64,000 nucleotides of DNA, taken from assembly GCF_003473485.1 (NCBI RefSeq), contig NC_053047.1, positions 40,410,972 to 40,474,971 of the forward strand. Reading direction: 5' to 3'. Each line of letters begins with the position of its first letter. Position 1 is the first letter of the stretch. The DNA is from Medicago truncatula. Lineage: Eukaryota > Streptophyta > Magnoliopsida > Fabales > Fabaceae. The notes under the pieces are model-generated. The model was not told where the DNA came from. It did no database searches and worked only from the letters and a program-made list of their open reading frames with translations. This document shows positions 43,410 to 52,345 of this stretch, one piece after another. The position numbers and the translations under genes were made by a program.

Positions 43410-46374
43410 ATGTATAAACCATTTGTGACATGTGATGATCCAAAAGGAGTTGTTGAGTGTGGAAGTATAAGGAGATATAGGTCAAATTCTCACAAAATGA
43501 AGGATAAGACAAAGAGCCGAAAGCCGGCCGAAAATTTAGAGACAAATAAACAAGACAAAGAAGAGAAGGTATCAAAAGGTTCTACAGAAAGAGATTTTGA
43601 TCCATCTTCTTTGCAGCTTGTGGAGGTATCTAGAGGTGCCGCAAAGTTGAACAACATGATTGAGTCGTGGTCTAGAGGTGTGAGGTACGATGGAAAATCC
43701 GATGATATCGCAAAGGATTTGTTAAAAGGTGCTCTTGATTTGCAAGAGTCTCTAGAGATGCTTCGACAGGTGCAAGAAGCTTCGAATAGTATGAGTCGAT
43801 CGAAGAGAAGACAAGAGGAGAAACATGAAAGAAGTAAAATTGATGCACATGTGAATGATGGAAATAGATCAACACATTCTAATCAATTTTTTGAACACAA
43901 TTCAGCTTATGGTTCTTCAAGTAGTTGTAGAGAGGAACTTAAGAAAGTGATTAAGGAGAGTTTGGTTCGACAAAATCTATTCCAAAGCACAAGTACTTCT
44001 GAAGGATTGGATTCAGCTTCAGCAGCATTCCCTTCTACAAGCTCAAGCCAATCATCTGTTGTTTGGTATGACAAACTTTCTGATTCTTCGTGTTCACCGA
44101 CTTTTCCAAGGAAGGAAAAAAGTACCAATCTTGTTGCAAAGTTGATGGGATTAGAACAATCCCCTTCAAGAACATTTCCATCTGTCATGCAAAAACAGTC
44201 TGAGAATCAAAAGATTGTGAATCAGAAGAGACCTGTGTTCGAGATTGACACACCGAAGTTAAGAAAGCATAGTTCAATATTTGAGAATCCAGAAAGAGAG
44301 AAGACACTAAGGGAAATTCTTGAAACTACTCATTTCAATGGATTGTTAAAGTGTAGTCCTATTAGAGAGCACAAGCTTCATAATCATGTCAATCATTCAA
44401 ATGATCTTCATTACAAACAGTTTGATGATTTACCACCGATTGTACTCATGAAACCTCGGCGCGCTTCGTATCAGGAATTCGTAGAAACGTACGAGCCGGT
44501 TCCTCGAGAAGAGTTTTCCTTTAGAAATCCAAAAGCAAAAGGAGCTCCTTCAAAAACCTTCAAACCAAGGGAGGGTTCAACTACCAATATGAGAAAAGAG
44601 ACGATGGAAGAAAGTCTATCCAAAAGGTTTATCAAAGAGGAGAGATCGAAGCGCGTCAACGAGTTTTTGGAATATGATGTGAAAGAAATCAAGGCTGTTG
44701 AAAACAAGAAGGTTCAAAAAGCTAGTCAAAGATCACAGGCAAGTGAAACAGTTGATGAAAAAGCTAAGGTAAAGAACATTACAATTCTCAGAAAACCAAT
44801 ACAAAAGGAGGTTTCAAAAGCTAAAGTTGTAGCGAAAGCTCAAGATCAAGGCGAAATCAGGTCTAGTAGTGAAAAGTTGAAAAAGCCGCGAAGTGTGTCG
44901 AGGATTGAGAAGAATGAGATTCCATCTAGAAAGAGCACTTCTTCAAATTCAAATACTGCCATCACAAAACCAAAGACACAAAAGGTTAATAGTTCAAAGG
45001 AGTTGAGAAAGAGTCAGATGAAGAAGCAAATATCTGTTGATTTGCCGGAAGCAGCTAAATCGATTGTAAGTGTTACTGTCATTTTTTTTTTCTCTATGGT
45101 ATGTAGTAGTGTTTGAAATTTGAACCGTCTTGGATAAAAGAGTTTGGCTTAGTAATCCTTCAATGAGTTTCAATACATTATTCTTGTGCACAGGATGAAA
45201 AATTAAAGCAAGAAGAAGGAATGAGTATCGATGTTTCTTGTAAAGATGATTGCGCTGAGATTAAAATAATCACTACAGTAACAGAAGATCTCATCATGGA
45301 GGATGAAGTAGACACCTATGCAAATAAGACTCGAGGTAATTTCTGAAACTGTAAATGGATCCACTTTGGCCCTGTTTGGATAAATAGTATAATTAAGAGT
45401 TTATAGCATAAGCGCTTACCATATAAGCTCTTATGTATATGCTATTTCTATAACAACAAAAAATTAAAATAAAGTCAAACTACTTTGAACACTCCATGGA
45501 AATACGCTGAAAATAGTCGAGAGCATTTCATAAGTTGTTTCTATAAGCATTTCATATGTCAGTAGATAAGCTCAAATAAATCAATCCAAACATGCCCTTT
45601 TTAGATGATTAGAAGCACACATATCATTACACGGAATAAATTGGAAGCTTAAGTGACTTATTTCACCCTTTTGCAGATAATTGCGAGGAGGGCCAGAATT
45701 CTTCGGTTGATGATGTTTTGATGCTAAATTATGAACATGAAAATGATACCATCCCTGCCGAGGAAGCTTGTGACACCACCGGCGTCAGTGAAACTTGTTT
45801 CAAGCACGACACAGACATTGCTGAAACCACCTGTATCAGTGGAACCGATTTCGAGCCAGACAAAGACACTTCTGAGCTGAAATATTTGCTTCTAACTAGC
45901 AAATCATTTATTGACCATGCAGATGAGTTTCTCAATCTTGATATCGATTATCCTAAGATCCTACCAAAGATTGAAACTAATGGAATAGCCAATACAAGAC
46001 TCTATTTGGATTGCGCGAACGAACTCGCCGAGAGAAAAAGCCTTCAAGAGTCATCACAATTAGTTCACCCCTTATTGCTAACTTGTGTAGGGAATTCAAG
46101 ATTGCAAATCTCTTTGAGCAGCTTGGTTGAAGAAGTTGACAATGCAATTGAGAAGCTTACATCTTACAGTGAAAATTCTGAGACTAAACTTATTTTGGAT
46201 AATATTTGTGCAATGTTGGAGAGAGATATGAAGTGCAACAATAGATTGATAAATGGAATGTGGAACTGTGGTTGGAGGCATGGATTTTCTTGTGATGAAG
46301 CTGAACAAGCGGTTAATGAAGTAGAAAACATGATTTTAGGTGGATTAATTGAGGAGATTATTGTAAATTTATGA
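43410..46374 (+). CDS. TRM-like (TON1-recruiting motif) / DUF3741-DUF4378 protein
   Basis: Three coding exons (43410-45065, 45194-45335, 45677-46374) join in frame: 2496 nt, 831 aa. The N-terminal region has LNNMIESWSRGVRYDGKSDD and AKDLLKGALDLQESLEML (residues about 78-115). Near residue 240 is NLVAKLMGLEQSP, the VAKLMGLE signature (DUF3741-associated) of this superfamily. The middle is Lys/Ser/Glu-rich and probably disordered. The C-terminal DUF4378 region (about 667-831) contains LVEEVDNAIEKL, WNCGWRHGFSCDEAEQAV and ends GLIEEIIVNL, resembling the C-terminal M2 motif by which TRM proteins bind TON1. In Arabidopsis, TRMs bring TON1/PP2A to cortical microtubules and affect cell shape and division plane. 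Exon 1 alone encodes 552 aa. The start is the first ATG after the last leader acceptor. Intron 2 holds a hAT-like MITE. Family is well supported; the exact TRM subgroup is not. Confidence 0.88.
45366..45601. mobile_element. MITE in intron 2 of the TRM-like gene
   Basis: The left end GGCCCTGTTTGGATAAATAG faces the right end AAATCAATCCAAACATGCCC, and internal ATAAGCGCTTA motifs are typical. Related scraps occur in RopGEF introns (about 15430-15530 and 15870-15955). Confidence 0.68.
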
Positions 46375-48253: not shown

Positions 48254-49372
48254 CTTATGTTGCTTTCTTTGAAAATCCACAAATGATAAATGATTTCTAG
48301 TTCTCTCAATTGTTATTGTTGTGTGTATATATACAAAAAAAATGTAGCTCATCATTCAACAATGATACACACTTAGTTCATTTTGAATTGAATGAATGAT
48401 TAAGGAATTTGGCAGCTTATGGAAAGTAGCACATAACCCGAATTTTTTTGATAAGGATATAGAATAAGCAAGTTTATCTAAAGTTTTCGAATTAATAATA
48501 CTAACTTTTTTGCTAATGTATGAAAAAGATTATTCGAAATTTTTTTTTCCTTCAAAGTGGAGCATGGTATTATTTTGACCAGTGGAGAAAGGGTTATGGT
48601 ATCATTAGTAAATACTATATCTTGACTCATTATTAAATCGTGCTTCATTGAGAATTTTATTAAGAAGAATTTTCGTTTCAATTCATGGACAAAAGAATTG
48701 ACCGGTGGTTGGAGGCTTTGAGCAGCCAAATATTGATGTTACCTTTTCTTATCTTAGTACAACTGTGAATTTGGTTAGTACTCCAGTCGATTACGAGGTA
48801 AATTTATTTTTGGTCATGTTTTATTAATAGGGTGACAAAACGTGTCAATCTATCATGTTTTGATCGATTGATCTATCAACTTGTCTAAAGTGGAACGAAC
48901 AAATTAGATAGATTGTCTCTCATTGTTCCTTGGGTTAAGCGGAACGAATCAACTTAAGTGATATGGTCTAAAACCTCAACTTTTGTTATTTTTGGTTTTA
49001 CTTGTCTTGAATAAAAAAGAAAAGAAAATGACCTCAAATGTTAAAACATCAAACAACACAATAAAATTTTGATAAAGTATGTAATAAGGGCAAAAGCCAT
49101 CTCAATTTGTTAAGAAAAATGTGGTATTCTGTCTAAGAATAATAATTGGAGTTGGAGAGCAAAAATCTGAGTTTATAAATACAAATAAAATGGTTCCATT
49201 AAAATATATTCATGAATCATTTTTTTTAATCGACATTAAAAGAGATACTTATATTTAACATCTAAGACTACCTGAATTCTCTACACTTTTAATATCGCTA
49301 AGATAATTTTTGAGCAATTTGAGAAGTGGGAATAGTAAAAATGAAATACTAAGCTGACATATGAGAAGCCTC
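48254..49372. other. Intergenic region between the dynein light chain and snoRNA promoter
   Basis: Holds the promoter of the leftward light-chain gene. No other gene or named repeat is evident. The transcription units on its two sides diverge. Confidence 0.45.
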
Positions 49373-49476
49373 TTGGGCCAAACTCAACCCGGTTACTATA
49401 CTCTTGAAATGCATTCATTCACGGCGCACCCTATGAACATTCTAGACAAAACCCTAAATTCAACTCTATAAAAATA
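49373..49476 (+). promoter_or_regulatory. Promoter of the snoRNA cluster: site II, telo-box, TATA
   Basis: TTGGGCCAA at 49373-49381 is a site II-type element (TGGGCC). AAACCCTAA at 49449-49457 is a telo-box. TATAAAAATA at 49467-49476 is a TATA box. Site II plus telo-box is the known promoter signature of plant snoRNA, ribosomal protein and ribosome-biogenesis genes. Spacing predicts a transcript starting near 49500 and running into the snoRNAs. Function is inferred from position and motif combination. Confidence 0.75.
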
Positions 49477-49688
49477 AACCCTCACATTCTCAATTTCAAT
49501 TCATTCTTAACCATGGTGTTTGATCCTCTCATATTATCATCTATTATATGATATGAAACCAATCATCCATTCTTCAATTACCATCTTGGTTTTCCAATTC
49601 CACTTTTTAGGATTTCGATTTTACTTTTGTAGTTTATTTTCAGCTTCGGTGTTTGTTTTAAACAATTTTTTTAACTGAAACATGAATT

Positions 49689-49785
49689 GGACATTGATGA
49701 ATACTGTGATAGGTCTCGTTCGTCGTAATGGTAAATTTTTACCTTGCCGACCATTCTGTTATATCACCACCCATATTCTGAGTCC
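49689..49785 (+). ncRNA. C/D-box snoRNA with two 18S-complementary guides
   Basis: Terminal stem GGAC (49689-49692) with GTCC (49782-49785). C box TTGATGA at 49694-49700, one change from RUGAUGA. D box CTGA at 49778-49781. Upstream of D, CACCACCCATA (49765-49775) complements UAUGGGUGGUG of plant 18S rRNA. Internally, AGGTCTCGTTCGT (49711-49723) complements ACGAACGAGACCU, another conserved 18S segment a short distance downstream of the first, followed by a degenerate D' (CGTA). An internal hairpin GGTAAA..TTTACC is possible. By the +5 rule it would direct 2'-O-methylation in the 3' domain of 18S. Complementarity rests on remembered 18S sequence, and no standard name is assigned. Confidence 0.77.
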
Positions 49786-50014
49786 TTTAATTTTCTTATT
49801 TTTATTTCAATCTTGTTTATTTTGTTAATTAAGTTTGGCCAATGATTTAAATATTTATAATAGACAAGCATATGTCTGAAGTTTAACATGTAGACTAATC
49901 TAATCTTCTCAATGAGGCCAAATTTATACTAAATTTTCACTTATTTTTATTTATTTTCTTGTGTACTTCCTAGGTTAATTTGGTTATGATCTAGTGAATG
50001 TGATATGAATATTC

Positions 50015-50138
50015 TTGTCTATGATGATATCTTGAAGGCTTGTTTCTCAAAACATTCGCAGTGGCCGCCTAAGAACTTTCGCCTTCGCCAGGCTTGAGAG
50101 TTTATGCTGTTTTATCCTTCCTTGGATGTCTGAGACAA
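50015..50138 (+). ncRNA. snoU14: U14 snoRNA, copy 1
   Basis: Terminal stem TTGTC (50015-50019) with GACAA (50134-50138), C box ATGATGA (50021-50027) and D box CTGA (50130-50133). It has both U14 signatures: domain B ACATTCGCAGT (50052-50062), and domain A CCTTCCTTGGATGT (50116-50129) immediately before the D box, complementary to ACAUCCAAGGAAGG of 18S rRNA. U14 is required for 18S processing and guides a conserved cytidine methylation. At 124 nt it is longer than vertebrate U14, with an extra hairpin-prone middle, as in plant U14 genes. Confidence 0.94.
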
Positions 50139-50286
50139 TGTAACATGTAATCTCACAATGTTTAATTCTCTGTTGAAATAAGGGTTTGTGATTACAATTT
50201 GTTTCTGCAAAGTTGATCATGTTAGCTTACTATTTGTGTATCAGTCTTATATTCATGTTGTGATCTTTTTGATTTTGATTGTAAAT

Positions 50287-50409
50287 GACCAATGATGATA
50301 ATATTAAGGCTTGTTTCTCAAAACATTCGCAGTGGCCGCCTAAGAGCTTTCGCCTTTCGCCGGGCTTGAGAGTTAATGCTGCTGTATCCTTCCTTGGATG
50401 TCTGAGGTC
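50287..50409 (+). ncRNA. snoU14: U14 snoRNA, copy 2
   Basis: A tandem copy 272 bp downstream of copy 1. Stem GACC (50287-50290) with GGTC (50406-50409), C box ATGATGA (50292-50298), domain B ACATTCGCAGT (50323-50333), domain A CCTTCCTTGGATGT (50388-50401) and D box CTGA (50402-50405). The interior differs from copy 1 at several positions. The stem sequence differs too but keeps pairing, so both are probably functional. Confidence 0.94.
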
Positions 50410-50571
50410 TAATTATTCACAATCTATCAACATATTGGTTATAATTTAGTGGCTAATGATGTATAATTTTGTCTGTTACACAACTTTATTTAACTGTTAT
50501 ACAACTTTTACCTACATCATTCCATGAAATTTTTCAATGGTGGATTTAATGTATCAGTGTTTATACAACTT

Positions 50572-50668
50572 TTTGTATGATGATATTAAATTTCATGCCA
50601 TGATTTGAAAACACTTATTTGTAGAAAAAGAATTAATTTTTAAGAAAATAGAAATTTGATCTGATCAA
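50572..50668 (+). ncRNA. Weak C/D-box snoRNA candidate
   Basis: C box ATGATGA (50577-50583) and D box CTGA (50661-50664). AGAAATTTGA before the D box would pair with UCAAAUUUCU of 18S. The terminal stem is poor and the guide is AT-rich, so this could be chance. It is listed because it sits in the regular spacing of the cluster. Confidence 0.28.
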
Positions 50669-50698
50669 TTACATATTACTCTGAATTTTGTATTTTAT

Positions 50699-50786
50699 TG
50701 GCTATGATGAGTCATAGAGATAGTCATGCACCACTCTGATGTTTCCGTGCTGATAATTTTCTCATACCCATTATTTTTCTGAGCCA
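50699..50786 (+). ncRNA. C/D-box snoRNA with U32/snR40-like 18S guide
   Basis: Terminal stem TGGC (50699-50702) with GCCA (50783-50786). C box ATGATGA (50704-50710), D' CTGA (50736-50739), D box CTGA (50779-50782). The D' guide CATGCACCAC (50725-50734) complements GUGGUGCAUG of 18S. The fifth position before D' falls on the G preceding UGCAUGG, the site I recall as methylated by yeast snR40 and animal U32. The guide next to D is unassigned. Confidence 0.75.
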
Positions 50787-51008
50787 TTTCATTTTCATTA
50801 TCATGAATCAATATTTGAATTTTGGAAGATATTATCTACTTAATTTTAAATTTACTTTCATGTTTTCCTTGAATTTGGACTCATCCATTTGCTCCATGAT
50901 CTACTAGCAGTAATTTTAAAACAAACACCATTATTTGACACTGAAAGACTAATAGATATCTAGTCTTTAGTGATCTTAGCTTGTTCAAATTCAATGTTTA
51001 TTTTTAGG

Positions 51009-51280
51009 CCAAATACCTCCCTGGGTAAGTTTCACGTTTGTTTTAGATAGGTCATTTAAGTTTCTAAGGTTTTACATAGGTCATTTAAGTTTCTAAGGTT
51101 TTAGATAGGTCTTTAAGTTTCAAATTTGCAAGTTTGCTTCGGATAGGTCTTTATGTCAAAACTTGAAGGACCTAACTGAAACCTGGAAACTTTAAGGCCA
51201 TATTTGATGCAAACTTCAGTTTGAAGGATCTATCTGAAACAACTATGAAACTTAAAGGAATGGGGAGGTATTTGGTCTTA
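51009..51280. mobile_element. MITE-like inverted element with TAGGTC(A)TTTAAGTTT repeats
   Basis: Starts GGCCAAATACCTCCC and ends GGGGAGGTATTTGG. The left half repeats ATAGGTCATTTAAGTTTCTA and the right half has the complement (GAAACTTAAAGGA, ATCTGAAACAACT). A related array is at 58780-58945. Confidence 0.7.
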
Positions 51281-51484
51281 TTTTTACTTTTAAGTTTGAT
51301 CAACAGTGTCTGTTAAAATGATATTGCTACATTGGTATATTGTATTGATCAAATTGTAGAAGAAATGTGCATCATGAGTTGGATATGCTGAAATCAAAGA
51401 TAACATTCATGGAATGTCTCTATGTTTTTGTATGGTTCAATTAAAAACCTTCAATTGAAAATATGATTTTGCAAATTAGTTTTA

Positions 51485-52345
51485 ATTCTAATAAAAGGGA
51501 TATCGTGCATATGCAAACTATGAGGATTACAAAGGTGGTTGTATTGAAATATGCATCTACAGACTATGAGGATTACAAAAGTAGTTGTATCGAAAAAGCC
51601 ACATGAAACACGTAGAAGCTTCCCTCTTGAGCCCAAGCATTCATGCATCAAATACTGTCTACAATGAGGCCAGAAGTTTGGTTTCTTCAGTTAACATCTT
51701 CATTATGGAAGAACCATGTGTTCCTGCTACCATATTTAACCCAATTTTATTGAGATTTTCAGTACCAAAGCATCTCATTTTGCGATAGTAACTTAATTGC
51801 TTACATGTTGTAAGCTCATCTAAAAAAGAATAAGAACAAGTGTTTGCTGATTGTCCAATTATTGCTTATGAAATTCTTGCTTCCAATAATCTCTTGTTCT
51901 TAAAATTTGCTATAGTTTCGTTTCTTTATTGAAGAAATTATAATGAGTCTGCGTTGTGCTAATTTTATATAGAAATGAGTTGAGCTAAATTGAAATTGGC
52001 TTAGTTTTTCTGACTCATTAAGAATTGAATCGACTTGAAACTCAATTCATTTGACTAGATAGCAAGAATAAAAAAAAAATCGAAAAACAAAAAAGTAACG
52101 CATGTAAATTCCTTATATTTTTGTATGGTTCAATTGTAGTTTCGAAAACATCTCACTAGTGTTGTGTTGTTACTTAGGTGTTCATTCAACTATGTGTTTG
52201 TTGATTAAGGTATGAAGGTTCAAGTTTTCTTTATTAAATGCATAGTTTGTCTATCATAATCTCTCAAAAGACTAACATGAGATTATTCAAATGATTCGTA
52301 CCGTCCCCTCATATATTGCATGTTAAACTCATAAATTCATCTTAC
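51485..52345 (+). repeat. Segmental duplication, copy 1
   Basis: Blocks match 53750-54790 in the same order: AAAAGGGATATCGTGCATAT, ACTATGAGGATTACAAAG, CACATGAAACACGTAGAA, CATTATGGAAGAACCATG, GTAAGCTCATCTAAAAA, TGAAATTGGCTTAGTTTT and GACTAACATGAGATTAT. A 45-bp internal tandem (CTATGAGGATTACAAA) is present in both copies. No coding function recognised. Confidence 0.85.

Follow-up and report, generated by a model that had tools for sequence, protein, structure and literature searches.

A five-gene box C/D snoRNA cluster of Medicago truncatula and its U27 gene with variant boxes

A 64,000-nucleotide stretch of Medicago truncatula DNA (contig NC_053047.1, positions 40,410,972 to 40,474,971; hereafter the window) carries a cluster of small nucleolar RNA (snoRNA) genes of the box C/D type at 49,689-50,786 on its forward strand, one of which, U27, departs from the canonical boxes. 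This raises the question of what the cluster encodes, and whether U27 is a working guide or a sign that the locus is decaying. The cluster consists of five small RNA genes predicted to guide chemical marks onto ribosomal RNA; one of the five probably also guides a mark onto a splicing RNA, and all are probably made from one transcript.

Composition of the cluster and its 18S guides

A scan of the whole window at Rfam gathering thresholds returns four matches, all on the forward strand and all inside the cluster interval, corresponding to snoZ43, two copies of U14, and snoZ221/R21b (Table 1). A permissive scan of 48,500-51,500 adds a fifth unit, U27 (SNORD27), with 40 bits against a cut-off of 52 (E 7.7e-5). 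When the region 49,300-51,300 is searched for a C box (one mismatch allowed), the D box CTGA and a terminal stem, four candidates are found, compared with a total of four over 24 control 2-kb pieces on the forward strand and one over 24 on the reverse strand; U27 is overlooked in this search because its boxes are non-canonical. The other four units have the defining features of box C/D snoRNAs (C box RUGAUGA, D box CUGA and a closing terminal stem), in that all have the D box CUGA, C boxes that are intact or have a single mismatch, and stems of 4-5 bp. The initial annotation, made from the sequence alone, had described a snoRNA cluster with three well-formed units and one weak one; the cluster and these units are confirmed, whereas the total was too low, being five and not four.

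The same annotation had recognized two U14 (SNORD14) genes, and both hold up by their Rfam covariance scores and by two domains complementary to 18S rRNA. In both genes domain A pairs at 10 of 10 positions with nucleotides 87-96 of the genome's own 18S, and domain B at 14 of 14 positions with the 18S of contig L014, at C414 (C418 in Arabidopsis). The genome's own 18S also served as the reference for the U27 A28 guide, and the L014 18S for the snoZ43 and snoZ221 guides. The D' guide of snoZ43 (49711-49723) is directed at the A1330 site and its D guide (49762-49775) at the U1266 site; its D' box is degenerate (CGTA), and the name SnoR32 is applied to it by target. The D' guide of snoZ221/snoR21b (50723-50735) pairs over 13 bp, including two G-U pairs, at the G1275 site (G1271 in L014), and no supported target was found for the D-side guide of this gene. 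Pairing of the guides with 18S, as the initial annotation had anticipated, is therefore seen at A28 (described below), C418, U1266, G1275 and A1330.

We note that two 18S copies located in the assembly with a 5' probe (L066, L067, L068, L069; C9) align to 18S only as far as about base 370, and that a mid-18S probe of the assembly gives no match.

U27 guides and the variant kink-turn

A more complex picture is seen with U27, which has AUGAUUU and AUGA where RUGAUGA and CUGA are canonical. The genome has two further U27 genes, which likewise fall below the Rfam cut-off, at 42.7 and 42.3 bits. A genome search with the Rfam model, which scored 65 out of 183,715 first-look candidates, found no U27 above this cut-off. 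The D' guide of the window gene (49862-49874) pairs over 13 bp with 18S and places A28 five bases from the box, and the D guide (49900-49910) is directed at U6 small nuclear RNA (snRNA), where A42 or A43 would be the marked base. The A28 guide together with its D' box has exactly three exact matches in the 430 Mb genome (control, none), and these are the three U27 genes; the combination of the U6 guide with a following (A/C)UGA box occurs only twice.

In the kink-turn of a C/D snoRNA the sixth position of box C pairs with the first position of box D, normally as G-C. Box C reads AUGAUU(U/A) in all three U27 genes, box D is AUGA in those designated C6a and C8 and AUAA in C6b, and a U-A pair replaces the canonical G-C in all three. 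The sheared G-A pairs are kept in C6a and C8, with one lost in C6b, and the window gene combines them with an 8 bp stem. We infer that the U-A change is compensatory rather than a product of decay. The chances seem to us about even that U27 is a working dual guide, for 18S A28 and U6 snRNA, on a compensated kink-turn variant, and that these clusters would couple an invariant mark of the ribosome with a mark of the spliceosome under a single growth-linked type of promoter.

Promoter motifs and transcription

Site II, telo box and TATA-like motifs span 49,374-49,474 upstream of the first snoRNA, such that a transcription start would be expected at about 49,500. The site II/telo-box promoter proposed in the initial annotation is thus borne out at the level of its motifs, and the arrangement is that of the plant TeloSII snoRNA clusters. 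Both motifs occur within the preceding 1 kb at 175 of 6300 window positions, and within the preceding 330 bp at 41 of 6300, counts in which the surroundings of the cluster itself are included, and their co-occurrence alone is therefore only moderately unusual. The motif pair has been applied to the hunt for new non-coding genes (Qu et al. 2015, PMC4660826); of 26 snoRNA genes whose prediction came from promoter features, 24 were unexpressed in the data of Wu et al. 2021 (PMC8053127), which makes the pair weak evidence when taken alone. Here the pair stands together with the Rfam matches, and comparison with paralogous clusters adds weight to reading it as a putative promoter. All five paralogous clusters in the genome are preceded within 1 kb by a telo box. 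The nearest forward copy is at -449 in one of them and between -185 and -240 in the other four; site II lies within 1 kb in two of the five, in one case (C1) on the reverse strand.

By its anatomy, the cluster would be transcribed as one RNA polymerase II precursor and trimmed into five snoRNAs, polycistronic precursors being described as standard in plants (PMC5122169), and we infer that transcription, processing and methylation proceed in this way in M. truncatula. The units could instead reside in an intron of an unrecognized host transcript, an arrangement common in rice: the same promoter motifs are reported for intronic clusters (Gaspin et al., PMC3022908), the leader is identical to the C6 copy at 120 of 164 positions, and short exons would be missed in a list of reading frames. 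We consider this unlikely, as there is no stop-to-stop frame of 100 codons or more between 46.4 and 53.7 kb and, in a domain scan of two of the listed frames, only one gave a match (DUF4378) and that frame ends at 46,371. Less probable again is the suggestion in the initial annotation of an 18S-dedicated cluster, whose members would be kept together for a common role in small-subunit maturation; the U6 guide of U27 and the content of the sister clusters speak against it, and the overall interpretation offered there is supported in part. We give least credence to a partly decayed, unexpressed duplicate, for although the cluster copy 18.5 kb downstream (its U14 without a C box, its U27 with the D box AUAA) indicates that local duplicates do decay, and U27 of the window cluster itself has non-canonical boxes, the other four units keep their boxes and stems, the U27 change appears compensated and is also present in the C8 copy, and the promoter motifs are in place.

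Table 1. Features of the snoRNA cluster (window coordinates) and of related loci
Feature	Position	Strand	Basis
Site II element TGGGCC	49374..49379	+	Sequence and motif scan; motif as defined in PMC3022908 and PMC4660826
Telo box AAACCCTA	49449..49456	+	Sequence and motif scan; also upstream of 5/5 paralogous clusters
TATA-like box TATAAAAA	49467..49474	+	Sequence and motif scan
snoZ43 (SnoR32-type by target) C/D snoRNA	49689..49785	+	Rfam RF00330, 119 bits (cut-off 43); guide pairing; Arabidopsis SnoR32 sites
U27 (SNORD27) C/D snoRNA, variant boxes	49837..49919	+	Rfam RF00086, 40 bits (cut-off 52); pairing; C6 and C8 paralogues; box geometry
U14 copy a	50016..50137	+	Rfam RF00016, 87.6 bits (cut-off 64); pairing; domain A 50053-50062, domain B 50116-50129
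U14 copy b	50287..50409	+	Rfam RF00016, 83.5 bits (cut-off 64); pairing; domain A 50324-50333, domain B 50388-50401
snoZ221/snoR21b C/D snoRNA	50699..50786	+	Rfam RF00300, 84.3 bits (cut-off 44); pairing
Two other U27 genes	L032 4488-4570; L034 2148-2228		
Seven copies of the ~900-bp element (L056, L057, L058, L059, L060, L063, L064)	C7:21.04M, C2:32.1M, C5:13.7M, C3:1.34M, C2:49.4M, C7:8.4M, C4:53.07M		

Elsewhere in the window, an imperfect inverted repeat at 51085-51194 gives a sub-threshold match to MIR1888 (22.8 bits, cut-off 72) and is perhaps the remnant of a small transposon.

Copies of snoR21b in a Mutator-type repeat and comparison with known clusters

A genome search for snoZ221/R21b gives at least 12 matches, at least 11 of them over the cut-off, genome-wide snoRNA counts being lower bounds. 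Seven of them are carried by a repeat that measures about 900 bp, is bounded by terminal inverted repeats of about 140 bp and is near full-length in each case; MIR2629 matches over cut-off occur at six of these seven loci. Nine-base target duplications, scored by eye, are exact in four copies, have one mismatch in two and are unreadable in the remaining copy, whose 5' end is truncated. This combination is the signature expected of a Mutator-type element, and we take the repeat to be a Mutator-type, Pack-MULE-like element. Over about 250 bp around the carried snoRNA the element matches, at 84%, a snoR21b locus that stands by itself on C1, and the source likely resembled that locus (L061, C1:9.968 Mb). 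The D box is altered (CAGA or TTGA) in all seven carried copies, which are therefore probably not working snoRNAs. Among the literature matches listed for 'Pack-MULE' and 'snoRNA' neither term is in a title or abstract, from which we make no claim that the association is unpublished.

The cluster itself is not a novelty; it illustrates well a type of gene cluster that is already familiar. Plant U14 genes are described as clustered and transcribed as polycistronic units, linked with one another and also with other snoRNAs in one precursor (Leader et al. 1994, 1997, as cited in PMC7464842); the species differ, and the likeness is drawn from that description. Like the TeloSII promoters described for Arabidopsis and rice (PMC3022908, PMC4660826), the window cluster has a telo box, site II and TATA motif upstream. 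In Table 3 of Gaspin et al. 2010 (PMC3022908), the telo box and site II are found together at 16 of the 17 intergenic snoRNA clusters of Arabidopsis, unlike the paralogous Medicago clusters, in which the telo box is constant and site II is not. As described by Wu et al. 2021 (PMC8053127), Arabidopsis SnoR32 has a degenerate D' box beside its A1330 guide, as does snoZ43 here; for U27, with box C AUGAUUU and box D AUGA in the window, the likeness to Arabidopsis is drawn from target sites. In that account Arabidopsis SnoR32, U27, U14 and SnoR21 are directed at the same 18S sites as their counterparts in this cluster, with the U6 site in addition for U27.
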